Positions 331 through 27,961 of a DNA stretch of 64,000 nucleotides are shown piece after piece; positions within the stretch are counted from its first letter, which is position 1; every line of letters starts with the position of its first letter. The position numbers and the translations under genes were made by a program. The stretch covers positions 1 to 64,000 of the forward strand of contig NZ_JACJSA010000027.1 in the NCBI RefSeq assembly GCF_014697545.1, in the 5' to 3' direction. The notes below the pieces were generated by a model that was given only the letters and a program-made list of their open reading frames with translations, was not told the DNA's origin and searched no databases. Source of the DNA: Oscillatoria sp. FACHB-1407. GTDB taxonomy: Bacteria; Cyanobacteriota; Cyanobacteriia; Elainellales; Elainellaceae.

Positions 331-1224
331 TGTCAACACTGGCTGAAAAGGTTCAGATATTTGGGTTGTTGAGATTGCTTTGTTAGCCAATTCTAGGCTC
401 TAAAATCTTGCAATTATTTTTTTCGTTGCATCATCCTAGAGTGTCAATCCGGTTCTCAGCCCATTTTGTTATGGAACTCTAGAGAGTCTGGCAATCTTGT
501 CAACATTAGCAATAGTTCAAACCCTGATTCTGGGGGAGCTTTCTGACTCACCTTCACCCCATCGAATGTGGCTACAGCTATATCAGGGGGTTCAAAACTT
601 TTGTCACTCAACCTGGGAGTTGCCCCGATCTAGATCTGATTGTCAAATGTGTGAATGTTTCAACATACTAGGCAACCCGTCAACTTTGTCAATTAAGGCT
701 ATCCTTAACCCTGGGCTAACGCTAAATTGTTGCTGAATTCTAGAGCGACGTGTCAATTTGTCAACTTGTTGGGGTGGCTCACCCAAGCGAGGCTTTATGA
801 CTCGGAAGGCTCAGGCTATGTTGCTTTAATCTAGAATAGCCTGTCAATTTGTCAATTGTGACCACAATTAGAGGCTTCATTGGGTAGTGTTTCAGATCTA
901 TTGCTACTAACCCCCGGCTGTCGCCGTCCCCCTTACCAAGGGGAACTACAGGGAGTCTTACAGAGGTTATCAACAGGTTTGGAACACCACCGCTTCATTG
1001 ATCAGGGGACGCAAAAAGTTGTGAGATTCTAGAGAAGCCTGTCAATTTGTCAATCTGCGATCGCCCCTCTGCTTTGTTTCTTAAAACTAGTGCAGCTGTC
1101 AATTCTGTCAACGCTGAGATGAGCTGATCCCAATGTCTCCGCTTACGCTTCACTGGCGTCACAGGAGAATGGCAAGAAGGTTGACAATGTAGCCTGATCC
1201 TAGATTAGTTGTCAATTTTGTCAA
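331..1224. repeat. Dispersed array of TCTAGA-N-TGTCAATTTGTCAA repeats (iteron-like)
   Basis: About ten copies of a compound repeat lie in this otherwise non-coding stretch. The core is TGTCAATTTGTCAA (two TGTCAA hexamers), seen exactly at 751-764, 842-855 and 1040-1053. Variants are at 678-693, 1097-1111 and 1210-1224, and single hexamers at 331, 442, 498 and 641. Most copies are preceded, 5-7 bases upstream, by a TCTAGA-like hexamer (CTAGA, TCCTAGA, ACTAGT). All full copies face the same way and are separated by roughly 55-200 bases. A TTATCAACA sequence resembling a DnaA box is at 967-975. The array sits just upstream of a large helix-turn-helix protein. Iterons of a plasmid-type origin or a regulator's operator array are both possible; the function is inferred. 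Confidence 0.7.
511..582 (+). repeat. Interspersed repeat family B, copy 1 (partial)
   Basis: This stretch matches the repeat at 35499-35590 and 49227-49322: TCAAACCCTGATTCTGGG, then the CTTTCTGACTC segment, then CCCCATCGAATGTGGCTAC. The left part of the element (AAAGCTTAAGGCAA) is missing. It lies inside the TGTCAA array region, between two of the repeats. Confidence 0.7.
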
Positions 1225-1631
1225 TTGTTAAATTATTTAAAGCTTTTGAGGCAACCATTGTCTTTTGAAGGTTACGGCTATGATTGCAAACGCTTTACGT
1301 TCAACGCTTTCTGACGATGGGCAGTTCTTTGTCATCGCTCACACTGGAGGGGCGATCGCTTTGATGTTAGTCGATCCTAGAGTCAAAGTTCCGCGATCCT
1401 AGTGGGATAGTAGAGGTGTAGATAGGAGGGGCGATCGCCACACTCCTGATATCAGAAGCCGTTGCCGACTTCACTAAAAAAACTCATTGCCTTAATCAAC
1501 GTATCGTGTTGACAGATTTGCTCCAGTGACTTTTGATCACTTGTGCTCAACGGTATACTAAGCCGATAATAGTTCGCCTTAATGTATTGCCTGTGACTCA
1601 GTTAAATGACCTTGCTCTCAGTGCAACCTCC

Positions 1632-3509
1632 ATGCTGAATGAGTCTCTCTCTGTTGATCCTGCTGCTGTTGTTTTAGATCAAAAGCAGGTGCAGGATTAT
1701 GTTGCAAAGCTAAAAGCAGGGAAATCATTTCTGAATTTAGTGCTGATTCATGTTGCCACTGGAATTAATCAATTTCGGTTGCGGTTAGCAAACACACGAC
1801 TTAAAAATGAACCAGATGTCATCAATCTCTACGACGAGACAGAGAAGATTGGTGCATTGCAAAAACAAACCATGATGCATCTTGAGCGACGATTTCGCTC
1901 GGTGTTGAAGACCGATGAGTTTTGGGAGCAGGCAGCAACCTGGATCTTAGGACGGTTGGATCAGTGGCAACGGGAAGGATTGATGCCATCTGATTGCGCT
2001 GTTGTGGGTGTGTTGTCGCTGGAGTCGGGGGCTGATTTAACAGACAGTGATGAGTGGCGCGAATCACTGGTGATAGGAGCTTGCGCGTTTCACACTGCGA
2101 GTCAATGGTTACGTCATCTCGATTTGTCGGGGCATAGTGCTGCCGAGATCGATAAATTGTTGGGAATTCAATCTAACGATACGCCTACGACACGGGAAGC
2201 TTTATTTCAAGATACGGATGTCGAACGAGTGGCTACAGGGTATCCCATCCTGACTGGAGCACAAGCTCTGATCAATTCCCAATGGGAGGATGGCGAATAT
2301 CCCTACTGGAAAAAACTGGTTGGGGAAGGCTTCATTCAACATCAAATTGTCCGTCAGAGTCCGTCTAGCCAGCAGATTGAGTTGGTTCCCAGTAAGGCAG
2401 CATGGGAGATCATTAACCAATTCGGTCCTGAAGCTGCTTATGTCTTTTTAATTTTTTCCTCCTATGCCACTGATTCAGAAGAACCGTGGGCAGAGCAGAT
2501 TCGCTTAAAGGGAACGGATTTAATTCGGTTGTTTGGCTGGGATAAGCGCACAGATATTACGATCGCCCAAAAACTCAAGAAGATTGGCAACCTGGTAGAA
2601 CTGGTTTGTAGCCTCTCGGTCCTGGTAAAAAACATCAATATTGGCGCAAAGCGATACGACGTTGAACGGGGTGCGATGTGGATTTTAGAAGGGTTAGGTT
2701 ATTCTGGTCAGTTGGCTCTGACGATGGATGCTAACCAACCTGATTCCCCAACTTATGAGGCGGGCGAGCCGGATGAGTTGTATATCAAAGTGCGCCCTGG
2801 GGTATGGACTGAGAAATTTTTAAACGCCAAAGATGCCAATGCAAAAGAGTCTCTGTTTCAATACGGTTATTTAGCGAAAAGTACGCTTCAGATCAATCCT
2901 TATCGTCAGCGATTAGCGTCAAAACTAGCGATTTTTCTGACGATTATGAGTCGCATTCGTGATGATGGGCGATATGAAGTACAAACCTTATTAGAGCGGT
3001 TAGAACCCAAGGAACTGCTGCAAGCGATTCGAGAAGATCGTTTGCGTCGCGTTAAATTGATCAATCAATGGGATAGTGCTCTGTTAACGCTCAAAGAATT
3101 GGGATGGGAGATTGATTTTGATTCTGCAACGTATCCAGAAAGCATCAGACCTGCCTGGTCTTTGAGTGATGATTTTGATTCTGGATATCGCCCCCGAAAT
3201 TGGTTAGCTACCTGGCTGAAGGCGATCGTCATCATCAAGCCATCTGTTAAGATTCAGGAAAAGCTTGGTGCTCATGGACCCATTACGCTAAAACCAGCTC
3301 GCCCAGTTGCTCAGTCTACTCCACTGACAGGTGAAGCGATCCAGATGGCGTTGAATGCCAAAGGAATGACCAAAGCCCAGTTGGCAGATGCGTTACAAGT
3401 CGATCGCTCCCTCGTGACGCGCTGGCTTAAAGGGCAACGTACCATCCAACCCAAACATCGCGAACAGATCAAAGCCTTGCTTGGAGATGTGGTGACTCAG
3501 CAAGCGTAA
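1632..3509 (+). CDS. Large DNA-binding protein with C-terminal Xre-type HTH; replication-initiator-like (tentative)
   Basis: A protein of about 625 residues. The last 60 residues form a clear Xre/Cro-type helix-turn-helix (MTKAQLADALQVDRSLVTRW followed by LKGQRTIQP). The middle contains segments reminiscent of winged-helix plasmid initiators: LKGTDLIRLFGWDKRTD with a following helical region, and NPYRQRLASKLAIFLTIMSR. These resemblances come from memory of such proteins, not a search. The frame is open from a TTG at 1533; the first ATG is at 1632, and neither has a good ribosome site. The repeat array at 331-1224 lies directly upstream, as expected for an initiator and its iterons or a self-regulated DNA-binding protein. 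A transcriptional regulator of unknown target is the main alternative. Confidence 0.6.
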   Translation: MLNESLSVDPAAVVLDQKQVQDYVAKLKAGKSFLNLVLIHVATGINQFRLRLANTRLKNEPDVINLYDETEKIGALQKQTMMHLERRFRSVLKTDEFWEQAATWILGRLDQWQREGLMPSDCAVVGVLSLESGADLTDSDEWRESLVIGACAFHTASQWLRHLDLSGHSAAEIDKLLGIQSNDTPTTREALFQDTDVERVATGYPILTGAQALINSQWEDGEYPYWKKLVGEGFIQHQIVRQSPSSQQIELVPSKAAWEIINQFGPEAAYVFLIFSSYATDSEEPWAEQIRLKGTDLIRLFGWDKRTDITIAQKLKKIGNLVELVCSLSVLVKNINIGAKRYDVERGAMWILEGLGYSGQLALTMDANQPDSPTYEAGEPDELYIKVRPGVWTEKFLNAKDANAKESLFQYGYLAKSTLQINPYRQRLASKLAIFLTIMSRIRDDGRYEVQTLLERLEPKELLQAIREDRLRRVKLINQWDSALLTLKELGWEIDFDSATYPESIRPAWSLSDDFDSGYRPRNWLATWLKAIVIIKPSVKIQEKLGAHGPITLKPARPVAQSTPLTGEAIQMALNAKGMTKAQLADALQVDRSLVTRWLKGQRTIQPKHREQIKALLGDVVTQQA

Positions 3510-4004: not shown

Positions 4005-4426
4005 TCCATGCATTCACACTGACGACTCCATTGGCAGTTTTGCCCAGATTACCCAATGTATTGTTTGGCAGCATAGTCAGTTGTGTTGCCCTTCTTGACA
4101 TCCCCTGTCTCATCAATACATAAGCTAATCGGTCGAGTTGCGATCTGTTGTCGAATTAGATGTAACCGAATCGCTCTGACTTGTTCAACCCGGACTTGTT
4201 CAACCCGCCACACCCCATCGCGTAGAAGGTGATGTAAACTTTGCCCATCTTTGAGTCCGGTGAGTTTGGCAATCTCCAGTAGCGTCTTGCGCGGCAGCGG
4301 ACTGAGAATGCCGACATGCAAGTACTTGAAGCATTCATACAACCGAATATCTGCAAAAACTGAGCGGTATAGCAGGCAGTAGTCATCAATGAATCTAATG
4401 GTTGCAACAGATTGTCGTGACTCCAT
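4005..4426 (-). pseudogene. IS701-family transposase, N-terminal fragment, frameshifted
   Basis: The minus-strand frame contains hallmark IS701-type segments in order: FIDDYCLLYRSVFADIR, ECFKYLHVGILSPLPRKTL, SLHHLLRDGVWRVEQ, and the catalytic-region motif CIDETGDVKKGNTTDYAAKQ. The frame ends after YIG at 4049, but the next frame continues the family sequence (GNLGKTANGVVSVNAW), which shows a one-base deletion. The similarity then stops, so most of the roughly 400-residue transposase is gone. A 15-base tandem duplication within 4179-4210 inserts a repeated RVEQV. This is a dead remnant with no visible terminal repeats. Confidence 0.8.
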
Positions 4427-5081: not shown

Positions 5082-8000
5082 TCAGCGCAAGCTCTCACAG
5101 GTTGTCGAGAGAGCAACTGGAGCCGATGCTAACAACTCGATGGTTCCATTGGCACTGGTTCTCCAGGTTTGCGCCTCAATGAGGACTGGGGGTTCACTTG
5201 AAGACGCGACAGATGCGTTGGAAGTACCTGAATCATTAACACTCACCCAACCTGTTAACAAATTGCTGCCGCTGAGCAGCTCGCCTGGGTTCGGTGGCAA
5301 TCCACCCCGACCTGTCACCACAAACTCCCCGTTCAGTACTTCATTGCGTCCACAGTGTTGGGCGATTTGCTGGGATGCGTCTATGACGGTGGTGGGTAGC
5401 TCGACTAAGCCCTGACTCGGATCGGTCGAGAGGAGGTCAAAGGCGATCGCCCCTGAAGCCCCAAACTCAGAACTGGCACTGATATCGCTGGTGGAGTTGC
5501 GCCTGAGTTGAGCGAAGCTAAAACGAGTGCTGGTTTGATCCTGCAATCCAAACAAACGATTTGCCTGGATGCGAATGTTGCCTCCGGTGCCTCGTTCAGC
5601 GGTGGCAATCAAGTCATTGTTTTCGTTGGGCAGAGCCAGGATGAACCCACTGGGTGCATTGATGCTGAGATTGCCCCCATCCGCATCATCAAAGGCTCTG
5701 GCGGAAATCAGGCTACTGTTTCGCATCAGCAATTGCTCTAACCCTAAAAGTTGTAGGTTTGCTCCTTCTCGATTGCTCGACGTGAAACCTGTTTCTGCGG
5801 TCAGTTGTCCGTTGTTGAGTTGCAAATCGCGAGTCGTGATGGATAGTGTTCCGGCTTGCCCTGCTGTGCTGCTGACGGTGATTACAGAGTTTCCCTCGAC
5901 TCGGAGGCGATTGCTCCGAATGGTGAGGTTTCCAGCGACAGGGACGCTCTGATCCGTAATGGTTCCCGTTGCCTCAGCAGCAAGCCGACTGCGATCGCTC
6001 ATCACAACTGATCCGCCTTCTTGCAGAGTGATACTCAAATTGCCTGCCCGCCCCTGCATGGTCGAGGTTGAAATGTCGCTATTCCCACTGAGTTCCAGAC
6101 TATTGGCTGCTTCAATCACGATATCCCCTCCACGACCTGCGGCTGTATCAGCCGTGATACGGGAGCGATCGCCCAGACGAATATTACCCGCACGGATTCT
6201 CAAGTCTCCAGCCGACCCTTGCCCCGTACTGCTGACGGTGATTTGGGCGCGATCGCCTAACGTCAAGCGATCGGCATTCCAGATCTCTACACTTCCAGCT
6301 TGTCCACCACCCGTTGCAGCGGAGGTGAGACGACTTCTATTGAGGGCAATATCGCCCCCCGGTTGCATCTCAACGCTGAGATTGCCAGAGCGCCCAGTTT
6401 CGGTGGAGGCTGAGATCGTCCCATTCAAGACTTGCAAAGCCTGTAATCCACTCAATTGGATATTGCCTCCAGTGCTGACACGGGATGAGGCGGAAATCGT
6501 GGCTTCATCTCGCAGCGTCAGTTGTCGTGTCTGAACCTGTAGATTGCCTGCGTTTCCAGTGGCTGTGGATCGGGCTGATAGAATGCCATCACCCCAAAAG
6601 GCGATCGCTTGTGGAGCAGTGACCTGCAACGTTCCTCCCTGCCCTGTGCCAGATGTGGATGCAGAGATTTGAGCACCTCCTTGCAGATGGATGGTCATGC
6701 TCTCCCGGTTGTAAGGCTGCAACACCAGATTTCCAGCCCTGGCTGCTCCGGTGGTTTCAGCAAAAATGCCACTGGTTGCGCCCGATACGTTGAGGCGATC
6801 GCTGCTGACGGTAATATTACCCCCCTGGGTTTGAGCTGTTGCGGTTGTGGTTGCGGTGGCTGAGATACGTGCCCCCTCCTGGAGTGTCAATGTAGGAGCC
6901 GCCAACCTAATATTTCCAGCCTGCCCAGCCCCACGAGTCTCTACGGTCAATTCCCCATTGCCCCTGATCTGCACAGCGTCCGGTGCTATGACGGTTAAGC
7001 TGCCGCCCTGACCCCGGTCTGTAGTTGCAGCGGAGATGCGGCTGTTCTCACTCAAGGCAATAGTCAACTGATTGTTGTAGTTCGGTTGGAGAGCGATGCT
7101 TCCTGCCTGACCTGTTCCCTGGGTCTCCGCTAACAGGCTACTGGTATCGGAAAGATTGACGCGATCGCTTCTGACAAAAATATTGCCACCCTGAGCCTGG
7201 GGTTGGGCGGTTTCAGCAGCGGTCGCAGATACCTGAATGTTACCCCGCACATCGAGTAAACCCGTGTCAATTTCCACATTGCCTGCCTGTCCAAGGGCTG
7301 TCGTCTCCACAGTCAATTGCCCATCACCCTGCAGAGTCAGGCTGTTTGGTGATGTTAAGCGTAAATTTCCACCCTGCCCAGCCCCACGAGTAGAACCAGA
7401 AATTTGACTATTTTGCAAAGTAACCGTGAGGGATTGCCCCTGGTTAAACGGTTGTAGCGTAATATCACCAGCATTACCCCCCCTGAAAGTATCGGCTGAG
7501 ATTTGCCCACCGTTTTGCAGGGTAATCAAGGGGCTAGACAGAGTGATGTCACCCGCCTGTCCCAATGCTCTTGTTTGCGTTGAAATCCCGCTACTCACTA
7601 AAAAATTATCAATGAGCGATGTTTGTAGGGTGTACGTTCCCTGACTAGCAATTTGAATTTCATAGCCATAGATAGTGCTGAATTCACTGACACGAAGATA
7701 GTAAGTTCCTGGTTTGTTAAAGATATAAGTCAGATACGCATCGTTTGGACTGGTACTACCACCGGCTCCAAGAGTAATAGGAGCGTTATTATTTGAGGCG
7801 ATTTCATTACCCCCGCTATCATACAAACGCAGCAGAGTATTAATATCTCCTTGAGCATTTGCGTTGTCGATGTCAAAGATGGCTTGAGTGCCAACGGCAT
7901 CAACGTTGAAGGCATAATAGTCGAAATTGTTACTTTCAAACGTGTCGCCGCCTCCAACCCCTGCGATCGACACATAGGGAATCTGATCAGACAGTAAAAC

Positions 8001-11000
8001 ATCTGGATTAGCGGTTGCATTCACAGTCAGGGAAGGATCAATGACTTGAGCGAGTGGAAAATCAGCCAGCACTCCCCTATCAAAGAAATCCTCGTTAGTT
8101 GCATTGTTGGGTTCAATCTCAGGTAAGGTGGCTGATGTTCTGAAATTCACATTGGGTTGACGGGTTCCCACTCCGGTTATAAACACCCCTTCAGCTGCCC
8201 CAATGGAAATGTCTCCTCCTGCCCCAGTCTCACTCAAGATGGCACTTGTATTAATGACACTGTTTCCTTCCAGGCGAACAGCCCCTCCAGCTTGCAGGTT
8301 GATTGATCCTGCTCGTCCACGTCCAGCCGTTAAGCTAAAAATACTACTATCCCTCAACTGAATATCACGATTGGCTGTGAGGAAGACATTCCCTGCATCT
8401 CCCACACCAAACGTGGCAGTGTTGAGTAGAGAGAAATTGCTGAACTGAATTGTATCCGCAGCAATTTGAACCGCACCTCCCTGCCCGGTTGATTCGGCTC
8501 CAGGCTCAAGCCCCGTCACTAAGCGGCTACCATCAATCGAAACGGCTCCTGTTGCGAGAATAGTGATATCCCCTGCTCTGCCCTGTCCATTGACCGTTGT
8601 GGTGAGTAAGTTGTTAGTGAAGGAAACGGAATTTCCCCTTACTCCAATGTCTCCACCATTGCCACCATCCCCGCTAGCCGCATTGACATTGCTGCGAAGG
8701 GTGCTGCCATCATTTAATCGAACCTCCCCAGACTGACTGAGCAGGGAAATGGTGCCTCCCCTGGCCGTTAGTTGTCCATTCTCCAGGATCTCTCCTGCCA
8801 CGATAGGCAAAGAATTGCCATCATTGATGGATGAATCCAGACTAGCTGTGGTGATGTCCTGATTGGCTTGCAGTTGAATCCTGCCGCCTTCTGCAGCAAG
8901 GGTTACTTGTCCTGCTGCACGAATCTGTGATACTGCATCCAGATCGACGCCTGCGGTTAATTCCTCAACGGCCAAATGACCACGAGTTTGCAAAGCAATG
9001 TCTCCACCCTGGAGATGAGCCTGGATACCTCCGCTACTGCCTGCTCCCAAAATGATGTCACGTGGGGAAAAGGGTGGGTTGGTTTCTATGGCTGTGTTGA
9101 TCCTGCCCGTTGTCAATGCTGCATTTGCCTGTAAGGAGACATCTCCACCTCTGGCTACCACTGTTACATTTTGGATTGTACCTGTATCTAAAAAAGGCTC
9201 TGGTTGCCTTGAAATGGCTTGTGCAGCCACACTGACATTGGCTCTGGCATAGGTAGAAAGGTTCTCTGTGGTTGTGAAGCCGGATGACTCTATGGCGATC
9301 GCCCCACTTTCAGCAATGGTGGTTGAGTTGCCAGCATTACCTGGCAGGATGGGAATGTTGGCATCTGTTCTGGCGAATGCGTTGGCATTTAAAAACGCTT
9401 CTGCAGAGGTTAATACCTCGCGCGTAGTCACATCATCAGTCGTACTGAGATTGACGTTTCCACTCCTGGCGATCGCAGTTGTATTGCCAATCTCTCCAGC
9501 AACCGCTGATCCTCGCCCAAAGGCCAATACTGATGCATTGGCACGGGCAGAGGTGCGAGTGTAAATCTCTTCAGCAGAAATCAATCCGCCTGCGACCATA
9601 GCAACATCTCCTCCAGTTACAATAGCGCTGACATCGCCAACCTGCCCTGCGGTAGCTGCTGCCCTGGCGAAGGTGACTCCCTCAGCGTCAGCGTTTGCCT
9701 GGGCTTCTGCTGCACTATTAATGAAACCAGTGCGAATGGTATCAGTAGCCGTTAACCCGATTCTTCCTCCAGTTGCAGTTGTTTGAATGGTGCCGATTTC
9801 TCCAGCATCAATGATGGGGGCAAGGGGATCGGTCGCATTGATCAGCACATCAGCATACACAGTTGAATTTAAATTGGCAGTTGCGATCGCTCCCCCCGCA
9901 TCCAGGGTAATCCGCCCTGCGGTAGCCGACAGTTGAGCATTGGTAACAATCCCGTCATTCAAGACTGCATCACGAGTAAACACAAGCCGACGCACAGAGG
10001 AATCCAGGACTTGAGTTGTAATGTTTTCGTTAGCAAGGAGTAAAATGTCACCTCCGATAGCAGTCTGGTTGATATCTCCTGATGTGACAATCACCTGCTC
10101 AGTCACTGCCGTATCTACATTACCCATCAGGTCAATACTGCCGCGAGCATCGATTGTGATGTTTCCTCCTCTGACAGAATCTCCCGCAAGGTTGCCAATT
10201 CCGGTACTGATACCTCCGGTTTGAATATTTCCTCCCGGCAACGCCCGATTTGGTTGATACTGATTGGTTAGAAAAATAGTGCCGCCAGGGTTGATAATGC
10301 TGCCAATCGCAATCTCTGCGCTCGTTCCTATGACACTGGTGATGGCAGGATTGGGATCCCGTGCGAGGGGTGGGTTTGCCGCAGTAAAGGCAGTGGTTCC
10401 GGCACGGATGTCCAACGTGGGCTGAGTTCGCCCATTAATGGGCAGCGTTGAACCGTCGGAAAGGGTGACGGTTTCGACCCATCCATTCGCAGGATCGGCT
10501 CCGGTAATGGTGATGTTGCCCGGAATGGTGACCCTCCCTCCTGCAAAGATGTGCAGTGAGGCTCCGGTGTAGCTCTCGAACTCGACATCCCCACTGGTGC
10601 GAATGATGGGATCGTTGGGACTGACCAGATCCCCCAATCCCCCATTCAACTGCTCCACGCGAAACCCACCACCGCTCCAATAGTGGGCATCCCCGATGAC
10701 AGGGTTGGGCGATCGCAACACCATGTCACCCCCTGAAAATAGACCGCTACTAGGGTGATTTAGCGCGAAGATATCTACTGTGCGATCGCCCTGTATGGTC
10801 AGACGGCCATGGGCACTGGCAATAAAAGGTTGGAGGGTCGTATCTCGAATCAAAACGGTATCCGCCGCTTGTAGGGTTAAGTTCTGTCCTGCCCGGAGTT
10901 GCCCTTGCAGGTCAAGATTGCCTGCGGCGAGAGTCAGCCCTCCTCCCGTCGTCAAATTGCCCCGGTTAATGATGCTGCCCCTGCCGGGTTGCAACCCAAT

Positions 11001-13059: not shown

Positions 13060-14304
13060 ATGGTGGCTCTCGATTTGGATTTCATTCGTGGTCAGTTTCC
13101 TGCCCTTTCACAGGAAGTAAATGGTCAGCCCGTTGTCTTTTTTGATGGGCCGGGTGGCACACAGGTTCCTCAATCGGTCATGGATGCGATCGCCAATTAC
13201 CTGACAACCTCCAACGCCAACACGCACGGTGCGTTTGTCACCAGTGTCCGTACAGATGATGTGATCACCGCCGCTCGAACAGCTATGGCTGTTTTTTTAG
13301 GCTGTGATGCGGATGAGGTCGTCTTTGGCGCAAATATGACGACATTGACGTTTGCCGTTAGTCGGGCAATCGGTCGTGAGTTGCAGGCGGGAGATGAAAT
13401 TGTCGTTACCCGCCTTGACCATGACGCCAATGTCACTCCCTGGACAGTGCTGGAGGAACAGGGTGCGGTGATTCGCGTGGTCGATATCCATCCTGAAGAC
13501 TGCACGTTAGATATGGCTGACCTGGAGCGACAGATCAGCGATCGCACCAAAATGGTTGCAGTTGGGTATGCCTCGAATGCAGTGGGCACCATCAACGATG
13601 TCAAAGCGATCGCGCAACTTGCCCATGCCGTTGGTGCACTGGTGTTTGTCGATGCAGTCCACTACGCACCCCATGGACCCATTGATGTACGGGCGATCGA
13701 CTGTGATTTTTTAGCCTGTTCTGCCTATAAATTCTTTGGACCACATGTTGGCATTCTCTATGGCAAACGGGATCATTTAGCCCGACTTCGCCCCTACAAG
13801 GTGCGCCCCGCATCGGAGGAGGGACCATCCCGTTGGGAATCGGGAACCCAGAACTTTGAGGGATTTGCAGGAGTAGTGGCGACTATCGCTTACCTGACAG
13901 AATTGGGCTATCACATCTCACCGACTGCTCCCAATCGCCGCACCGCCCTGTTAGCCGCGATGTCTGCCACTCAAGACTATGAGCGAGAATTATTTAAGCA
14001 ACTCGTGCCTCGCCTCCTGGAGATTCCGGGGTTAACGTTTTACGGCATCGCTGATCCGGCTCGTTTTGAATGGCGAACCCCAACAGCAGCTATTCGACTG
14101 GAGGGGCATACCCCTCGCTCGGTTGCACAAGCCCTGGGCGATCGCGGCATCTTTGTCTGGAATGGCAACTTTTACGCACTCAACCTCACTCAACGCTTAG
14201 ATCTTGAGTCGAGTGGCGGTTTGGTGAGAATCGGTCTGGCACACTACACCACGTCAGACGAAATCGATCGCCTGCTCAAGGCACTAGACGACATTGTCTC
14301 CTAA
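13060..14304 (+). CDS. Cysteine-desulfurase-like PLP enzyme (aminotransferase class V) lacking the catalytic Cys
   Basis: A 414-residue fold-type I PLP protein. Lys224 in ACSAYKFFGPHVG should bind PLP, with Asp198 (VFVDAVHYAPH) as the pyridine-nitrogen partner. The overall form matches the cysteine-desulfurase-like TIGR01976 group. True desulfurases carry an active-site Cys in a C-terminal loop. Here the matching stretch (GNFYALNLTQRLDLESSGGL) has none, so persulfide chemistry is unlikely and a lyase or other amino-acid reaction is more plausible. An AAGGA ribosome site precedes the ATG. It follows the 2OG-Fe oxygenase closely. Its stop codon overlaps that of the convergent hupW by a few bases. 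Confidence 0.85.
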   Translation: MVALDLDFIRGQFPALSQEVNGQPVVFFDGPGGTQVPQSVMDAIANYLTTSNANTHGAFVTSVRTDDVITAARTAMAVFLGCDADEVVFGANMTTLTFAVSRAIGRELQAGDEIVVTRLDHDANVTPWTVLEEQGAVIRVVDIHPEDCTLDMADLERQISDRTKMVAVGYASNAVGTINDVKAIAQLAHAVGALVFVDAVHYAPHGPIDVRAIDCDFLACSAYKFFGPHVGILYGKRDHLARLRPYKVRPASEEGPSRWESGTQNFEGFAGVVATIAYLTELGYHISPTAPNRRTALLAAMSATQDYERELFKQLVPRLLEIPGLTFYGIADPARFEWRTPTAAIRLEGHTPRSVAQALGDRGIFVWNGNFYALNLTQRLDLESSGGLVRIGLAHYTTSDEIDRLLKALDDIVS

Positions 14305-14756
14305 CATAACGTTTCAAGAATCTTAGAAAAGACGAGGTTGCTGCTTTGTTCCACAGAAGGGCTGAGGTCTACGCTAAAGCCCAAATTCTCGGCTTCAATT
14401 AAGTAGACCGTGACATCGGTCGGGAACTCTGAGAAGATTTTGCGTCCGGCAGCAAGGGCATGATCCCAACGAAAATCGTGCAGATTGTAGCTGGGACTGG
14501 GCAACGCCTCCAGTTCCGATCCGGGGACTTCAAACACGGCTCCGGGGGGTGATCCGGTGGAACTGGCATCGATAATGATCAGGCGATCGCTTCCCTTGGC
14601 GCGAAACATCACTTCAATTCCGGCAGTGCCACAGTCAAACACTTGCACATCGGGAATGGGATGAGCGGTGAGGTGAGCTTGCAGGCGTTGGGCGATCGCC
14701 ACTCCAACCCCATCATCACCTCGATTAGGATTACCACAGCCAATGATAGTGAGCAT
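14301..14756 (-). CDS. hupW: Hydrogenase maturation endopeptidase for HupL
   Basis: A 151-residue protein of the M52 hydrogenase-processing family. It starts MLTIIGCGNPNRGDDGVGVA, the typical N-terminal motif. Nickel-sensing ligands are expected at the acidic residue of RGDDGVG, at an Asp near IIIDAS, and at the conserved histidine of NLHDFRWDHAL. The enzyme removes the C-terminal tail of the hydrogenase large subunit after nickel insertion. It lies downstream of hupL on the same strand, past a 258-base gap filled with heptamer repeats. That position and its similarity to cyanobacterial HupW make HupL the expected substrate. It is cytoplasmic. Confidence 0.92.
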   Translation of the reverse strand: MLTIIGCGNPNRGDDGVGVAIAQRLQAHLTAHPIPDVQVFDCGTAGIEVMFRAKGSDRLIIIDASSTGSPPGAVFEVPGSELEALPSPSYNLHDFRWDHALAAGRKIFSEFPTDVTVYLIEAENLGFSVDLSPSVEQSSNLVFSKILETLC

Positions 14757-14792
14757 AAGCGGAAGTAAGGGAGGGAGGGAGGGGGTGAGGGG

Positions 14793-14996
14793 GTGGGACT
14801 AATGATTAATGACTAATGACCATTAACTACTGACCACTGACCATTAACTACTGACCACTGACCATTAACTACTGACCATTGACCATTGACCATTGACCAT
14901 TGACCATTGACCATTAACCATTGACCACTGACCATTAACCACTGACCATTGACCATTGACCATTAACCACTGACCATTAACCATTGACCATTTGAC
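14793..14996. repeat. Short tandemly repeated heptamers between hupL and hupW
   Basis: About 200 bases are built almost entirely of 7-base units TGACCAT, TGACCAC and TAACCAT/TAACTAC in tandem. This is a short tandemly repeated repetitive (STRR) array of the kind well known from cyanobacteria. The units mutate mainly at positions 2 and 7, giving higher-order blocks. It is non-coding and separates hupL from hupW, so the length may vary by slippage between strains. Confidence 0.95.
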
Positions 14997-15014
14997 CCCC
15001 GCCCCCTAACCCAA

Positions 15015-16610
15015 TTAAGCCGTTCTAAACCGAGCCAATTCTTCACCTGTTTTGGCATCATGTGCGTGAACAGTGCAAACCAGGCAAGAATCGAACGATC
15101 GCGCTACGTGCCCTACCTCGATCGGGTCTGTTGGATCTTGAATCGGTGTTCCCACCAGGGCAGACTCAATCGGACCCAGTTGCCCATCACCATCGCGAGG
15201 ACCCACATTCCAGGTGGTGGGTGCAATCATTTGATAGTTCTTAATCTTGCCACCTTCGATTTCAACCCAGTGACACAGCGCACCCCGTGCGGCTTCCGTT
15301 GCGCCCCAACCGCGTCCATCTTTCTCAGTGGGCTTAATGTAGAAAGGCTCATTCAAGTGGAATTCGCGCAGGCAATGTTCCGCTTGACGGTAAAGTTTCA
15401 CCAACTCGTGGACTCGTGCCATTTGTCGCACATGAATATTGGCACCACCCATTGCCTTAAACATACTCAGGATAAAACCATCGTAGTGTTGCCACGACTC
15501 GCCATGTCTGCCACCTGCAACCAGTTGTCGCGCTAATGCTCCGGCTTCTAACCGTCCCGATTGAATATGGCGAACAGCACTTGACCAGGAGTATGCCCCG
15601 TTGAAGTCATGTTCATTCTTTTGAATCGGTGTCGTGGTGCGATCGAACGGATGCACATCGGCATTCCCTTCGTTATACCAGGAGTGGCTCGTGTTCTCCC
15701 GCGCCAGAGCGTGATTCATCAAGGTGTGCGTATCCGTAAAGCTGTCGTACACACCACTCTTCATGATCAACGCTGCATTGCGTCCTTCAATGGTCGGTTT
15801 CTGATACTTGTCTTCGTGTGGCAGGTAACCCCAGGTGACGTATTTACCGACACCCGCCCCGTACTTGTCCAACCCGATATCCAATCCCATCCGCCAGTAG
15901 AAGCCCAAGTCAGAATTCGCGTGTTTGGGGTCTTCATCTAACCAGATCAGGAAGTCCTCATAGGTTTGGATCTCTTCGTAACGTTCCAGAGAACAACCGA
16001 GCCATACGGGTTCTAACCAGTTCTTGCGGAAGTATTCGAGAATCGACCAGGCGCGGGTAATGTCCGTTAGCGTCGGCGCACACATCACACCACCGGGAAC
16101 CATGTAGCTAGAGTGAGGCCACTGTCCGCCGAGCAGGGCGTAGATTTCGACGGGCTTCCCGGAGATCGTGACACCCAACTCATAAGAAGTTCCGGTATAG
16201 GCAGCAAAACGGCGGCAGGCTTCTTCGTAAAAGGGACTGTGCTGATATTTCTTGTGGGTCAGGTCGATCGCAAACAACCCATAAAAGTAACGAGGAATGC
16301 TTTGAATCGATTCGGCAAGCTGTCCTAAATTTCGCGCCAGAATGGCGTTACGCGGAACTTCTGTCCCCCAGGCGGTATCGAGTGCCCAGGAGGCGCAGGT
16401 AAGGTGAGAACCACCACAGATACCACAGGCGCGGGGGGTCACAATCAGTCCTGCTTGCGGATCTTTGCCTTTGAGAATAATTTCAAAACCGCGAAACAGT
16501 TCGGCGTGAGTCCAGGCGTTGACGACCTGACCATCTTCAATTTCCACGCGAACATCTAAATCGCCTTCTACCCGTCCGACCGGGGAGATGTCTAACGTTT
16601 GAACTGGCAT
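15015..16610 (-). CDS. hupL: Uptake [NiFe]-hydrogenase large subunit
   Basis: A 531-residue NiFe catalytic subunit. The N-terminal metal motif is RACGICGGSH (Cys62, Cys65). The C-terminal one is DSCLVCTVH (Cys509, Cys512, His515), with Ser where many hydrogenases have Pro. After His515 there are 16 further residues starting AHDAKTG, the tail expected to be cut by HupW. With HupS it oxidises H2, typically recycling hydrogen released by nitrogenase, and passes electrons to the membrane chain. The gene is uninterrupted: no excision element is present, unlike hupL of some heterocystous strains. It follows hupS after 138 bases containing heptamer repeats. Confidence 0.97.
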   Translation of the reverse strand: MPVQTLDISPVGRVEGDLDVRVEIEDGQVVNAWTHAELFRGFEIILKGKDPQAGLIVTPRACGICGGSHLTCASWALDTAWGTEVPRNAILARNLGQLAESIQSIPRYFYGLFAIDLTHKKYQHSPFYEEACRRFAAYTGTSYELGVTISGKPVEIYALLGGQWPHSSYMVPGGVMCAPTLTDITRAWSILEYFRKNWLEPVWLGCSLERYEEIQTYEDFLIWLDEDPKHANSDLGFYWRMGLDIGLDKYGAGVGKYVTWGYLPHEDKYQKPTIEGRNAALIMKSGVYDSFTDTHTLMNHALARENTSHSWYNEGNADVHPFDRTTTPIQKNEHDFNGAYSWSSAVRHIQSGRLEAGALARQLVAGGRHGESWQHYDGFILSMFKAMGGANIHVRQMARVHELVKLYRQAEHCLREFHLNEPFYIKPTEKDGRGWGATEAARGALCHWVEIEGGKIKNYQMIAPTTWNVGPRDGDGQLGPIESALVGTPIQDPTDPIEVGHVARSFDSCLVCTVHAHDAKTGEELARFRTA

Positions 16611-16689
16611 AGTGTTTGGGATGAGTAGCTAGTTGGGAAATGGGGAGTGGGGAATAGCCGTTTGTCGGTTATCATTTGTCATTTGCAAT

Positions 16690-16746
16690 AGCAACAACTA
16701 ATCAACCAATGACTAATGACCACTGACTAATGACTAATGACCAATG
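16690..16746. repeat. Short heptamer repeats in the hupS-hupL gap
   Basis: The gap between hupS and hupL contains tandem TGACTAA, TGACCAC and TGACCAA units, a shorter relative of the array at 14793-14996. Repeats of this type in hupS-hupL gaps are known from heterocystous cyanobacteria, where a hairpin has been proposed to influence the transcript. No strong hairpin is obvious by eye here. Confidence 0.8.
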
Positions 16747-16748
16747 AC

Positions 16749-17711
16749 TTAAACCGTGAAAATATCTTCTTCTGCCCACCGGGGAGTAGCATCTTTGGCA
16801 ACGATACTGAGCAGGGCGTAGTCCTTCTTGTTAACTCCGGTGGGAAGTTCTTTAGGTACACCCATCACTGTTTGCGTTTTGAAGACAGTGCCCGGTTTGA
16901 GATCGTGGAAAGGAAATTCAGGTTCAGTGCAACCCATACAGGGCATTCCAGCGCGGGTTTTAGAGGAAACGCGATTCCACAGAATGCGGTTGCAGGAGGA
17001 GTGGGTCATGGGTCCACGACAGCCAAGATCATAGTAGAGACAGCCACGCCGTTGACCAAATTCGTGAGTTCCAGCTTTGTAAGCGAAGTGAACGTTGCGG
17101 GTACAACCCGTTTGAGTGAAGCTCTTGAAGAAGGTTTGAGGACGGTTGAGTTCGTCGAGGGTAACATCGCCCAGGCGATTAGTGGCGATCGCCACCAATA
17201 TTTGCGTAATCCAATCCGGGTGTGCCGGACAACCGGGAATGTTGATGACTGGAAGCCCTGCTTTAGAGCGATAGTCTTTGCCAAGAAAACCGCCTTCTTG
17301 ACGTTTGAGGAACTGCAACCCTTGAGATTCGCTGGGATTAGGAGCCATCGCAGGAATACCGCCCCACGTCGCACAATCGCCCACGGCTACAACAAAGCCA
17401 GCAACGGCTGACAAATCGGCTAGCCAATCCTTCATCGGACGTGCCGCAAAGCGATTCCAGGTGCCAGTGCCATTGGGGGCATTAACGACGCTGCCTTCAA
17501 ATACGAGAATGTCGAGCGCAATTTTGCCGCTGACACAATCCCACAAGAGTTGCTGCAACTGTTCGCCGAGTTCCAAGCCCAGCGATGGATGCCACAACAC
17601 GTTGATTCCGAAGTCGGTGATCAAGTCACAAACACTCGGTTCTTCTGCATTCAAAAACGACATGGTGTTGCCCGAACAGGCACCACCCTGAAGCCAAAGG
17701 ACGTTTACCAT
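16749..17711 (-). CDS. hupS: Uptake [NiFe]-hydrogenase small subunit
   Basis: A 320-residue iron-sulfur subunit that carries electrons from HupL. Cluster-binding cysteines are visible in LQGGACSGNT (Cys12), VGDCATWGG, NIPGCPAHPDW, TGCTRNVH, RRGCLYYDLGCRGP, SSCNRILWN and MPCMGCTEPEF. There is no N-terminal twin-arginine signal and no C-terminal membrane anchor, as in other cyanobacterial HupS proteins, so it stays on the cytoplasmic side. It is the first gene of the hupS-hupL-hupW unit. Divergent to it is the extended hyp run. I saw no exact NtcA site (GTA-N8-TAC) upstream. Confidence 0.97.
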   Translation of the reverse strand: MVNVLWLQGGACSGNTMSFLNAEEPSVCDLITDFGINVLWHPSLGLELGEQLQQLLWDCVSGKIALDILVFEGSVVNAPNGTGTWNRFAARPMKDWLADLSAVAGFVVAVGDCATWGGIPAMAPNPSESQGLQFLKRQEGGFLGKDYRSKAGLPVINIPGCPAHPDWITQILVAIATNRLGDVTLDELNRPQTFFKSFTQTGCTRNVHFAYKAGTHEFGQRRGCLYYDLGCRGPMTHSSCNRILWNRVSSKTRAGMPCMGCTEPEFPFHDLKPGTVFKTQTVMGVPKELPTGVNKKDYALLSIVAKDATPRWAEEDIFTV

Positions 17712-21165: not shown

Positions 21166-22362
21166 ATGCAAGTTCGTTTATCGATGACCGTTCCAACCGA
21201 TCGCCCTTTGTTGGAATCTGCTTCAACCCCTTTAGCGGCTGAGGCTGAGGTGATTTTGGGGCGATCGCTCTCTGATTCGATTTTGCCGATTCCCCTTGCG
21301 CCCAGTGCCTCTAGCATGTTTGGCCCCCGTGGGGTGTGTCTGGTTGCAGAAGCAGGTCCACTGTGGGTGGCAGATACAGGACATCATCGGCTGTTGGGTT
21401 GGCGATCGCGCCCTACTTCTGATAATCAAGCGGCGGACTGGGTAATTGGACAACCGGACTTTGCTCAGGAAGGGCAAAACGGGAAAGGGGCGATCGGTGC
21501 AGCAACGGTCAGTGTGCCAACGGGGATCTGTGCGACGGAGCGAGGCTTAATTGTTGCCGATGCCTGGAATCATCGGGTGCTGATTTGGCATACGCGCCCA
21601 GAGGCACATAACGTTCCGGCGGATGTGGTGTTGGGGCAGACCGATTTCTGGCATGGGGAGCCAAATCGCGGCGATTCAGAAACTGCTGGCGATCGCCTCC
21701 ACTGGTGTTATGGCGTGTTCTACTATCAAGGCAAATTGTTTGTCGCCGATACGGGCAATCGGCGGGTGCTGGTGTGGAATCAACTGCCGCAAGAAAACGG
21801 GCAACCTGCGGATCTGGTCTTGGGGCAACCGAATTTCACGAGTCGTAATGAGAATGGGGGTGGCAGTCCGACCGCAGCGAGTTTGCGCTGGGCACACGGC
21901 ATCACGGTGTGGAATGGCAATCTGGTGGTCGCGGATGCGGGCAACAACCGCATGATGATCTGGCAGGGTATTCCCACTGATAACAACACTCCCTGTGTTG
22001 CTGTGTTGGGACAGGAAAACTTCCAGGATGCAGAACTGAATCGGGGTGTGTATGCTCCTACGGCTGCTAGCCTCAATATGCCCTATGGCGTTACCGCAAC
22101 GGAGGATTGGCTTCTGGTAGCAGACACCGCCAATTCGCGGTTATTGGGCTGGAAGTATCGCGCTGACTTGCGATCGCTCCACGGTACACCCGCCGATGCG
22201 CTGGTCGGTCAATTTAATTTTCATAGCAAAGGCGAAAATCGGTCTTACGGAATGCCCTTGCGGGATAGCGTTTGCTGGTCTTATGACATTCAAGCCTGTG
22301 GGAACACGGTGGCGATCGCTGATTCCGGTAACAATCGCGTTTTACTCTGGAGGCTGAAATGA
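21166..22362 (+). CDS. NHL-repeat beta-propeller protein of the extended hyp operon
   Basis: About 398 residues with six or so repeats carrying the NHL-type signature: LWVADTGHHRLLGW, LIVADAWNHRVLIW, LFVADTGNRRVLVW, LVVADAGNNRMMIW, LLVADTANSRLLGW and VAIADSGNNRVLLW. Each is followed by a VLGQ-x-x-F segment, giving a regular propeller. The ATG at 21166 has a GGGGAG box 7 bases upstream; earlier GTG codons abut the previous stop. No signal peptide is seen. It overlaps hypF (ATGA), so the two are translated together. Propellers of this type bind proteins or RNA; a scaffold for hydrogenase maturation is inferred from position. Confidence 0.88.
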   Translation: MQVRLSMTVPTDRPLLESASTPLAAEAEVILGRSLSDSILPIPLAPSASSMFGPRGVCLVAEAGPLWVADTGHHRLLGWRSRPTSDNQAADWVIGQPDFAQEGQNGKGAIGAATVSVPTGICATERGLIVADAWNHRVLIWHTRPEAHNVPADVVLGQTDFWHGEPNRGDSETAGDRLHWCYGVFYYQGKLFVADTGNRRVLVWNQLPQENGQPADLVLGQPNFTSRNENGGGSPTAASLRWAHGITVWNGNLVVADAGNNRMMIWQGIPTDNNTPCVAVLGQENFQDAELNRGVYAPTAASLNMPYGVTATEDWLLVADTANSRLLGWKYRADLRSLHGTPADALVGQFNFHSKGENRSYGMPLRDSVCWSYDIQACGNTVAIADSGNNRVLLWRLK

Positions 22363-24794
22363 CGCTCAGTCTCAATCGCCTGTCTGCATCGTTGCAAGCG
22401 GTTTCTGAAGAAGTTGCAGAGACTATTCGCATCACTGGAACCGTTCAGGGAGTTGGGTTTCGTCCAACCGTGTATCGCTTGGCGAATCAGTATGGCTTGC
22501 GTGGTGAAGTTCTGAACGATGGCGCGGGGGTCTTGATTCGAGCCATTGGTACGGAAACCGCATTGGATCACTTCGTACAACAACTCCAGGTTGAATGCCC
22601 ACCGTTAGCGAAAATTACGGCGATCGCTCGTTCTCCTCTAAGCGCAGCATCCTTCACGGACTTTCAGATTGTCGAAAGTGTTGCCACTTCTATCTCTACG
22701 GAGGTTGCACCGGATGCAGCAACCTGTCCCAATTGCGTTTCTGACACACTCGATCCCTTTAGTCGTTGGTATCGCTATCCGTTTACCAATTGCACTCATT
22801 GCGGACCTCGCCTCAGCATCATTCACACGATTCCCTACGATCGCCCCAACACCAGCATGGCACCCTTTCCCATGTGTGTGGAGTGTGCCGAAGCGTATCA
22901 TGACGTGAGCGATCGCCGCTTTCATGCTCAACCTGTTGCCTGTCACAAATGTGGACCCAATGCCTGGTTAGAGCGGACAGATGGAAAGGCGATCGTGGCA
23001 GATATGTTTTCCATGATGGATGATGTGGATGCAGCCTGTACTCTGATCCAACGCGGTGAGATTGTTGCCATCAAGGGCATCGGCGGCATTCATCTGGCCT
23101 GTGATGCGACCAACGAAGTGGCAGTGCAGAAACTCCGCCAGCGCAAACGTCGCTACGATAAGCCTTTTGCACTCATGGCGCGGGATCTCACCATTATCGA
23201 GCAATACTGTGACATTAGCCCCGTAGAACGAGAACTGCTGCAAAGCCCTGCTGCTCCCATTGTGCTATTGAAGGTAAAGCAGGAATCGACCCCGACTCCC
23301 CACTCCCTACCCCCTATTGCCCCACTGGCTCCCTCCCTGGCTCCTGGACTCTCTACCCTCGGCTTCATGCTGCCTTATACGCCTCTGCATCATTTGATGT
23401 TGCGGCGGATGAAACGTCCGATTGTTCTTACCAGTGGCAATTTGAGCGATGAGCCGCAATGTATTACCAACGATGAGGCACGGCAAAGGTTAGGGGCGAT
23501 CGCTGATTTTCTGCTGCTTCACAATCGGGATATTGTGAATCGAGTTGATGATTCGGTGGTGCGAGTGGTCAATCATCAACCGCAGATTTTGCGACGGGCA
23601 CGCGGGTATGCACCTGCTCCAATCCCCTTACCTGCCGGATTTGAGCAGGCTCCCGACCTGTTAGCCATGGGTAGCGAGTTAAAGAGCACTTTTTGTTTAC
23701 TTAGCAATGGACGAGCCGTTCTCTCGCAACATTTAGGCGATCTGGAAAATGCCACGGCGTTTGCAGCGTATCAGGACACCTTAAATTTGTATCTTGACCT
23801 GTTTCAGCATTCACCGGAGGCGATCGCGATTGATCAGCATCCTGAGTATCTTTCCACCAAACTGGGACGAGAGTTTGCTGAGGAAAAGTCGCTACCGATT
23901 CACTTGATCCAGCACCATCACGCCCATGTTGCCGCTTGCATGGCAGAGAATAGCATTTCCTTAGAAAGTCCTCCTGTGTTGGGAATCGCCCTGGATGGCT
24001 TAGGGTTTGGTGAGGATGGAACCCTCTGGGGCGGTGAGTTTTTGTTAGCAGATTATCGACAATTCCAACGTGTGGCACGCTTAAAACCTGTGGCAATGTT
24101 GGGTGGGAGTCAAGCGATCTACCAACCCTGGCGCAATACCTACGCTCATCTCATGTCTGCTTCAAGTTGGGAAGAATTGCACGCAACGTATAGCGATCTG
24201 GAGATTATTCAATTTCTGGAACAACAACCGCGATCGCTCCTGGATCAAATGCTGCAAAAAGGGATTCATTCACCCTTAGCTTCCTCTGCCGGACGGTTGT
24301 TTGATGCGGTTGCAGCGGCGATTGGTTTAAGTCGAGAAAAGGTTAGTTATGAAGGTCAGGCAGCGATTCAATTAGAAGCCTTGATTCAATCCCATGATCT
24401 GGAGTTGGCAAAGATTTCACCCTATTCATTCGATCTGCAAACTGTTCAATTAAACGATCAAACGTTGCTTGAATTAGATTCGCGATCGCTCTGGTCTGCG
24501 TTACTTCAGGATCTACAACAATCTACACCTTCAGGACTCATATCAGCGAAGTTTCATCTTGGTTTTGCGAATGCGATCGCTCAACTGGTTCAACACCTCA
24601 GTCACTCGTATGGATTCACTCATATTGCACTGACAGGAGGTGTTTTTCAAAACGAAATTCTCACTCATGCCGTTCAACAGCAACTCTCAATAATGAACTT
24701 CACCGTCCTGACGCATCATCGTGTTCCTCCTAATGATGGGGGTCTATCTCTTGGACAGGGGGCGATCGCCGCTGCCCGTTCTCTATTAACTTAA
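22359..24794 (+). CDS. hypF: Hydrogenase maturation carbamoyltransferase HypF
   Basis: An 811-residue protein that makes the thiocarbamate precursor of the cyanide ligands from carbamoyl phosphate. Domains in order: acylphosphatase (TGTVQGVGFRPTVYRLA, near residue 25), two zinc-finger pairs (CPNCVSD and NCTHCGPR; CVECAEAYHD and CHKCGP), a YrdC-like domain (around KRRYDKPFALMARDL), and a Kae1-like domain (HHHAHVAACMAEN, LGIALDGLGFGEDGTLWGGE). The length is normal. Its ATG overlaps the preceding stop by four bases. It is followed at 80 bases by hypC. Confidence 0.97.
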   Translation: MTLSLNRLSASLQAVSEEVAETIRITGTVQGVGFRPTVYRLANQYGLRGEVLNDGAGVLIRAIGTETALDHFVQQLQVECPPLAKITAIARSPLSAASFTDFQIVESVATSISTEVAPDAATCPNCVSDTLDPFSRWYRYPFTNCTHCGPRLSIIHTIPYDRPNTSMAPFPMCVECAEAYHDVSDRRFHAQPVACHKCGPNAWLERTDGKAIVADMFSMMDDVDAACTLIQRGEIVAIKGIGGIHLACDATNEVAVQKLRQRKRRYDKPFALMARDLTIIEQYCDISPVERELLQSPAAPIVLLKVKQESTPTPHSLPPIAPLAPSLAPGLSTLGFMLPYTPLHHLMLRRMKRPIVLTSGNLSDEPQCITNDEARQRLGAIADFLLLHNRDIVNRVDDSVVRVVNHQPQILRRARGYAPAPIPLPAGFEQAPDLLAMGSELKSTFCLLSNGRAVLSQHLGDLENATAFAAYQDTLNLYLDLFQHSPEAIAIDQHPEYLSTKLGREFAEEKSLPIHLIQHHHAHVAACMAENSISLESPPVLGIALDGLGFGEDGTLWGGEFLLADYRQFQRVARLKPVAMLGGSQAIYQPWRNTYAHLMSASSWEELHATYSDLEIIQFLEQQPRSLLDQMLQKGIHSPLASSAGRLFDAVAAAIGLSREKVSYEGQAAIQLEALIQSHDLELAKISPYSFDLQTVQLNDQTLLELDSRSLWSALLQDLQQSTPSGLISAKFHLGFANAIAQLVQHLSHSYGFTHIALTGGVFQNEILTHAVQQQLSIMNFTVLTHHRVPPNDGGLSLGQGAIAAARSLLT

Positions 24795-24874
24795 ATCGAT
24801 TCCCGTTTCAAGCCATATCACAAATCGCCCCTACCTCACTCCCTACTCCCTATCTTTCACAAAAGGTTATTAAC

Positions 24875-25147
24875 ATGTGTTTAGGAATTCCCGGTCAAAT
24901 TGTCGAAATTACGAGTGCTGAACAGAAGTTGGCGATCATCGATGTGGGGGGTGTGAAACGACAGGTGAATATTGCCTGTATTGTGGACACCGATCATCCC
25001 GTTGAATCCTGTGTCGGAGATTGGGTGTTAGTGCATGTGGGATTTGCCATGAGTCGAGTCGATCCCACAGAGGCAGCAGAGACGTTGAGTCTGTTAGAAG
25101 AACTTGCCGAAGTGCATCAAGCGATGGCAGCGAGTGGATTAAATTAA
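24875..25147 (+). CDS. hypC: Hydrogenase maturation chaperone HypC
   Basis: A 90-residue chaperone starting MCLGIPGQIVEI, the diagnostic HypC N-terminus whose Cys2 (after Met removal) contacts the Fe centre and the large subunit precursor. It works with HypD as the scaffold on which Fe(CN)2CO is built and delivers it to HupL. The stop lies 15 bases before the hypD ATG, so the two are surely co-translated. Confidence 0.96.
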   Translation: MCLGIPGQIVEITSAEQKLAIIDVGGVKRQVNIACIVDTDHPVESCVGDWVLVHVGFAMSRVDPTEAAETLSLLEELAEVHQAMAASGLN

Positions 25148-25162
25148 TTGGGAAGACACATC

Positions 25163-26329: not shown

Positions 26330-26344
26330 GGTTAAGTTGCTTAG

Positions 26345-26465
26345 TACTGCTATTCGCAAGTAGGGTTTGGAAATAAAACCAGGGGGGTGTGGGGCTGCGC
26401 CCCAGCCAGGGGTTCCACCCCTGCACCCCAAATTCCCACCCCTATTTACGACGAGTTGTACTCAG
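26345..26465. repeat. MITE-like family A, degenerate copy between hypD and hypE
   Basis: The interior GGTGTGGGGCTGCGCCCC, with AGCCAGGGGTTCCACCCCTG and CACCCC, matches family A at 41872 and 4480. The ends are no longer clear (CTGCTATTCGC, GTTGTACTC). The insertion sits inside the hyp operon, so the GC-rich stem may affect read-through into hypE. Confidence 0.6.
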
Positions 26466-26508
26466 GCAGACGGGTAAAGAGACGATCGCTATCACAAATC
26501 ACTGAATT

Positions 26509-27609: not shown

Positions 27610-27619
27610 GGAATGCAGA

Positions 27620-27961
27620 ATGCACGAACTGGGAATTACACAAAATATTGTGGCGATCGCGGCGGAATACGCTAATGGTGTTCCTGTGAAGCGAGTCACC
27701 TTAGAAGTGGGTAAACTTACCGCCATTCTGCCGGATGCCATTCGATTTTGTTTTGATGTCTGCTGTCAGGGAACGATCTTAGAGGGTGCAGAGTTAGAGA
27801 TCCTCGAAAAACCAGGTCTAGCGCGTTGCCGTCAATGTGGCTCAGAAGTCGCGTTAGAGTTGCCCTTTGGGGTGTGTCATTGTGGCTGTCAAGATCTGCA
27901 AATTATTCAAGGGGAAGAACTCTCCATTAAAGAATTAGAAACGGAGGATGTATGTGTGTAA
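27620..27961 (+). CDS. hypA: Hydrogenase nickel-insertion protein HypA
   Basis: A 113-residue metallochaperone. It begins [11 protein letters not shown], whose His2 and Glu3 form the nickel site, and contains a zinc site from CRQCGSE and CHCGCQD. It works with HypB to load nickel into HupL. The gene overlaps the hypB start by 10 bases, showing tight coupling of the pair. Confidence 0.96.

Follow-up and report, generated by a model that had tools for sequence, protein, structure and literature searches.

The non-coding repeat array at the start of contig C27 and the helix-turn-helix (HTH) protein gene that follows it very probably make up an iteron-type plasmid (or plasmid-derived) replication origin, in which the HTH protein would act as the specificity factor. 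The window (the whole stretch of DNA analysed) is the first 64,000 bases of C27 (95,342 bp), one of 66 contigs of an 8.13-Mb cyanobacterial genome, and window base 1 is the contig end. The window ORFs confirmed the initial annotation: the array occupies non-coding DNA immediately ahead of the HTH gene, and a divergent gene flanks it on the opposite side. Two hallmarks of an iteron origin were found here: same-direction repeats in non-coding DNA, and an adjoining gene, conserved together with the repeats, whose product is the candidate initiator.

The array unit is a 41-bp three-part element, GT(T/C)-N8-CTAG-N6/7-[T]GTCAA-N3/4-GTCAA. Seven strong units and one degenerate unit, all on the + strand, span 466-1227. 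The unit matrix was trained leave-one-locus-out, i.e., without the window, and the seven units scored 32-44 bits with it: unit 1 at 466-506 (44.3 bits), unit 2 at 655-695 (32.8 bits), unit 3 at 727-767 (39.7 bits), unit 4 at 818-858 (35.7 bits), unit 5 at 1016-1056 (36.0 bits), unit 6 at 1074-1114 (37.4 bits), and unit 7 at 1187-1227, the HTH-proximal one, which has a GTAGC-type box 1 and enters AT-rich DNA. The degenerate unit at 617-657 scored 11.8 bits, and no other site in the 64 kb exceeded 12.5 bits. The compound pattern generated 0 matches in dinucleotide shuffles of the intergenic region, against 7 in the real sequence. Exact copies of TGTCAATTTGTCAA were found only at 751, 842, and 1040, within units 3, 4, and 5. 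The same-direction array originally described is real, but the "about ten" copies reported for it are reached only by counting degenerate ones.

Anchoring on the copies aligned 56 units from the window and 15 relatives, 16 loci in all. A third box, GT, located 11 bp before CTAG, was invariant in 56/56 units, though it lay outside the search pattern; the two-box unit of TCTAGA and TGTCAA proposed earlier contained two genuine boxes and missed this one. In unit coordinates, GT is at -30/-29, A at -22, and CTAG at -19, followed by the two GTCAA half-sites. The distance from CTAG to the second GTCAA is fixed across the 56 units, while the first half-site precedes the second by 9 bp (47 units) or 8 bp (9 units), and the gap between CTAG and the first half-site shifts by one to compensate. 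Spacing between units in the window is irregular, as had been noted (55-200 bp), and measures 58-198 bp, or 38 bp at the shortest when the degenerate unit at 617 is included. The 198-bp gap contains a ~92-bp interspersed repeat (901-991) with at least 40 genomic copies that are 91-98% identical.

The system does not end at 1224, where the array had been delimited, and runs on to a tandem pair of GT(T/C)-N8-CTAG boxes 22 bp apart at 1366-1405 (+ strand). Two or three such boxes exactly 22 bp apart were present in 16/16 array-bearing loci, with three in L064. This pair is a candidate for the core iterons or for an autoregulatory operator. With respect to the contiguous arrangement and ~22-bp period of iterons, the main array has units 58-198 bp apart, while the pair and the distant three-copy loci described below have the 22-bp period. 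The contrast initially drawn with 22-bp iterons holds for the irregular main array and is partly wrong overall, because 22-bp spacing occurs at this locus and is the norm across the wider family. A stretch of 50 bp at 1201-1250 (no strand) adjoining the array is 78% AT, the intergenic maximum, and is a candidate DNA unwinding element; the corresponding stretch is weak in several relatives. DnaA boxes were not enriched (0.32 per kb in array-locus regions versus 0.50 in the window); a DnaA box is not needed in every iteron plasmid. Further downstream, the -10-like hexamer in GGTATACT at 1552-1559 (+ strand), kept in 4/8 loci checked, may be a promoter element of the HTH gene.

The HTH gene (1593-3509, + strand) encodes 638 aa from GTG 1593 or 625 aa from ATG 1632. 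The initial annotation began the gene at 1632; its ~625-aa product with a C-terminal HTH was correctly recognised, but the start is probably GTG 1593, because GTGACTCA is conserved in 5/8 loci. The C-terminal HTH, of Xre/Cro type, is encoded at ~3339-3452 (+ strand). The ~350-residue central region generated no hit to any Pfam family listed or, by sequence, to a solved structure. No Rep-type Pfam family was among the 25 families listed for 21 HTH family members, and the PDB profile matches of the family were to HTH domains. The structural model of the protein was poor (pLDDT 46, built with 11 close sequences), and only an Xre HTH was matched by it in Foldseek. The suggested likeness to winged-helix initiators of the RepA/TrfA type was not borne out: no Rep_3/RepA domain was detected, and Xre/Cro HTH is the only recognisable part in Pfam, PDB, and Foldseek. 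Chromosomal HTH relatives (L010, on G000:C1, - strand, 1072-2694, and L052-L054) carry an N-terminal 4Fe-4S ferredoxin-like domain preceding the same central region and HTH, and could be a redox-sensing paralogue of the replication factor.

The divergent gene (3-143, - strand, ORF P0001), truncated by the contig end at codon 47, is a member of the PrimPol (archaeo-eukaryotic primase) superfamily. The 47-codon fragment matched the profile of ~580-aa divergent homologues (E 2.3e-16), and the class was assigned on full-length homologues, of which the window shows the first 47 codons alone. Family matches of the full-length homologues were weak but consistent; the DxD, sGxH, and third acidic motifs are present in a PrimPol fold, and D76, D78, H119, and E154 were invariant across 16 diverse homologues. 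CRISPR-associated Prim-Pol (CAPP) was the best match in the PDB profile search (E 0.015), with the motifs aligned. In Foldseek, the AlphaFold model of a homologue (pLDDT 63.7, higher in the core) generated 7nqe as the top hit (E 4.7e-5, probability 1.00), followed by LigD polymerase. Four full-length homologues showed no match above cut-off to NF042913 (CyRepA1), to which L006 and the C34 gene do match. PrimPol matches of two relatives contained stop codons.

In each of the 15 other array-bearing loci, the array had one orientation, and it lay directly upstream of the HTH gene and only there. The initial annotation had tied its reading to conservation of the repeats upstream of homologous genes, and this expectation was borne out, because the repeats are kept upstream of every array-bearing orthologue examined. 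The gene at the far flank was PrimPol in 12 of these loci and CyRepA1 in three (Leptolyngbya boryana pLBX, L020, and L065), so that CyRepA1 replaces PrimPol as the divergent partner while the array is kept. The HTH orthologue on the G029 chromosome has neither an array nor an adjoining primase, so the HTH protein can exist apart from an origin, and in G025 a 4.26-Mb contig that also has dnaA (G025:C6) carries the module. The function of the module may be lost or different in these two genomes, because of the chromosome-sized contig in G025 and the solitary HTH gene in G029.

Box 1 of the units is of either GTT/GTA or GTC type. A single change accounts for this split on the HTH tree (98/100 support), whereas the PrimPol tree requires four changes. 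A single box-1 clade on the PrimPol tree was rejected (AU p 0.0013, an indicative value as the groups were named after the motifs had been seen). The L021 PrimPol clusters (100/100) with the PrimPols of two plasmids whose repeats, like their HTH proteins, are quite different. A Mantel-type test of motif versus protein distance was weak, in a set that included one mis-framed sequence (L073). Array variants are thus co-inherited with the HTH protein and not with the primase, and the simplest reading of the two trees is that the HTH protein would set repeat specificity, while the priming enzyme is exchanged.

Beyond the close relatives, the analysis covered ten more plasmid loci, whose HTH homologues are more distant (30-43% identity over the matched part). 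In 9/10 a large gene follows the HTH gene within ~1.3 kb (two of these loci have a small intervening ORF); these large genes are DUF3854/CyRepA1-like, PriCT-2, or PrimPol, or no family was called (L125 and L126, whose proteins did not match the PrimPol profile). The L132 record stops after the HTH gene, and its PrimPol match lies just past the record start. The genes of the distant members are collinear, with the 22-bp iterons in the gap between the 3′ end of the HTH gene and the start of the Rep gene. Three tandem 22-bp repeats occupy this gap in seven loci (L123-L128 and L130, among which L127 and L128 are near-identical), several with TCTAGA; the L131 gap contains three 22-bp repeats and dispersed 78-bp compound repeats, and the L129 gap contains other repeats. 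Compound repeats and 22-23-bp TCTAGA iterons also occur in the same position on the Leptolyngbya NIES-3755 PrimPol plasmids (L022 and L023). The family thus repeatedly shows two kinds of site, short ones in tandem and long dispersed ones. The initial annotation had offered an undescribed cyanobacterial replicon module as one option, and repeat conservation, the PrimPol/CyRepA1 flank, and the distant plasmid loci support it. The HTH protein was found on 46 plasmid records and PrimPol on 66. It is reasonably probable that the HTH proteins are phylum-wide, undescribed iteron-binding initiators of large plasmids, working with CTAG iterons and interchangeable PrimPol, CyRepA1/DUF3854, or PriCT-2 partners. 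In the viral contigs searched, no HTH relative and one PrimPol relative were found.

The iteron array is not universal for PrimPol plasmids, as some PrimPol genes have no adjoining repeats. At the settings used, the PrimPol genes of a 13,170-bp L. boryana plasmid, pSYSG, and C36 had no repeats next to them, and C29 and C40 generated single two-copy repeat matches only. The 13,170-bp plasmid carries, besides the PrimPol homologue, just parAB, transposition genes, and one small unknown ORF. Two adjacent PrimPol homologues (6001-7254 and 8430-9449) are located near parAB in L025, i.e., Synechocystis PCC 6803 pSYSG.

C27 itself looks like a plasmid-like replicon, because it carries accessory genes (including a large TPS-secreted adhesin and a [NiFe] hydrogenase with HypF) and a ParB gene at 43,742 in the window, and no tRNA genes. 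The "integrated" origin suggested earlier was not borne out for this contig. A KGGVGKT-type ParA motif was not found on C27. In a comparison of backbone synteny, the module was essentially the sole part shared by C27 and related contigs. C27 and C39 of the same genome start identically over ~101 bp inside the divergent gene (77 shared 25-mers), as is usual where an assembly breaks at a gene carried by two replicons. The proposed GC-skew check was carried out and gave no coherent origin signal along C27, nor any coherent signal in 20 samples of the G025 chromosome contig. The idea of the module as a DnaA replacement was dropped, dnaA being present away from the module in 13/13 genomes checked.

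In the mechanism that we propose, the HTH protein would bind CTAG-centred boxes, both in the 22-bp pair upstream of its own gene and in the dispersed 41-bp units, which carry an extra GTCAA direct repeat. Binding would open the adjoining AT-rich stretch, and the bound protein would recruit the divergently encoded PrimPol for primers. As titration or handcuffing sites, the dispersed units may also set copy number and incompatibility; the promoter-proximal pair may be an autoregulatory site for the HTH gene. Such autoregulation is compatible with an origin. In an alternative reading, the array is an operator, the HTH protein regulating its own promoter and the divergent promoter of the replication gene, with the origin elsewhere. 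An Xre/Cro-type HTH, the divergent gene order in this clade, and a conserved -10-like hexamer preceded by the 22-bp CTAG pair would suit an operator; however, seven units over 760 bp far exceed what a simple promoter needs, the collinear distant members have their iterons between the HTH and Rep genes, and the array outlasts the switch from PrimPol to CyRepA1. We regard this alternative as unlikely.

Separate parA/parB genes in some of these loci (L013 and L016, from their ORFs, and L023), the ParB gene already present in the window, and the usual neighbour being a primase-type Rep rather than an ATPase make it very unlikely that the array is a centromere bound by a ParB/ParR-like HTH protein, although a plasmid location and one-oriented repeats adjoining a DNA-binding protein gene are what a partition site would show. 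A decayed remnant of an integrated plasmid without present function would be in line with the dnaA-bearing 4.26-Mb contig and with the stop codons in two relatives, but it is highly improbable for the window, where an intact HTH gene and seven intact, sharp units lie on a contig with accessory genes and ParB and without tRNA. Tn7-like ends consist of irregularly spaced compound repeats, which the array resembles; yet no second, inverted array was found in the window and no Tns genes beside the array, and placement between two replication-type genes is kept in unrelated contexts, so that TnsB-like sites at the end of a Tn7-like or CAST element are scarcely credible.

As a probable iteron origin, the locus can be compared with known systems. 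Classical iteron origins (RK2, R6K, and pPS10 type) have same-direction repeats of ~22-bp period adjoining the gene of a DNA-binding protein. The locus shares the one-oriented repeats, the DNA-binding gene, and, in the proximal pair and the distant members, the 22-bp period, but differs in that the main array in the window is dispersed and compound, no RepA/TrfA/Rep_3 domain was detected, and a primase is attached. The divergent protein shares its fold and catalytic motifs with CAPP (7nqd/7nqe) and other PrimPols, whereas the gene context of the window type is plasmid replication and not CRISPR. V. cholerae ori2 has a multi-domain initiator, RctB, with 12-mer iterons, 39-mers/29-mer, and an AT-rich element, and an RctB site overlies the initiator's own promoter (PMC6090056). 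A multi-domain candidate initiator, short and long site types, a candidate AT-rich element, and a site near the promoter of the candidate initiator also occur here, but the short site lies within the long one, the spacing is different, and a primase gene is coupled. No sequence relation of the HTH family to RctB was detected in family or PDB scans, and the likeness of the two site types is one of analogy, not homology. Replication activity has been demonstrated for the CyRepA1 family (PMC9978351, PMC10899382), whose members are divergent from the array in pLBX, L020, and L065, whereas the window partner is PrimPol. The published control of pSYSA is ssr7036/asRNA1, and the words "iteron" and "helix-turn-helix" are absent from the main texts of both papers (PMC9978351, PMC10899382). 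No description of the HTH family or its repeats was found in the open-access literature searched, and both seem to be undescribed.

According to PMC10899382, few replication proteins of large cyanobacterial plasmids are known, and that paper identifies no Rep for pSYSM or pSYSG. The module provides a testable candidate origin together with its likely specificity protein and a candidate Rep of PrimPol type, all of which recur on numerous plasmid records. Compatible shuttle vectors could draw parts from it, and it allows a direct test of how one cell maintains several large plasmids. For replicon evolution more broadly, the evidence that priming enzymes are exchanged while the specificity module stays constant is of interest. 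If the phylum-wide initiator family is real, it could explain the coexistence of many large plasmids per cell and would point to candidate replication genes for Rep-less plasmids, e.g., pSYSG with its two PrimPol homologues.

Ten copies of TACGCCGGAGTGATAGAACA, mostly 24-34 bp apart, were found at 818-1130 of L066 (G000:C39). These iterons, a different set from those of the window, lie between the cut PrimPol gene and the gene of a 364-aa protein without a Pfam match, and are probably a second origin in the same cell. Elsewhere in the window, a DDE-type transposase fragment is located at 4049-4426, just 3′ of the HTH gene, and GGTCAAT-type short tandem repeats ~7 bp apart lie at 14890-14996 (- strand). 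The [NiFe] hydrogenase region extends over 14301-17711 and 22359-28911, with the large and small subunits confirmed by Pfam; HypD/E/B-like genes, called from ORF reading alone, accompany HypF in this region.
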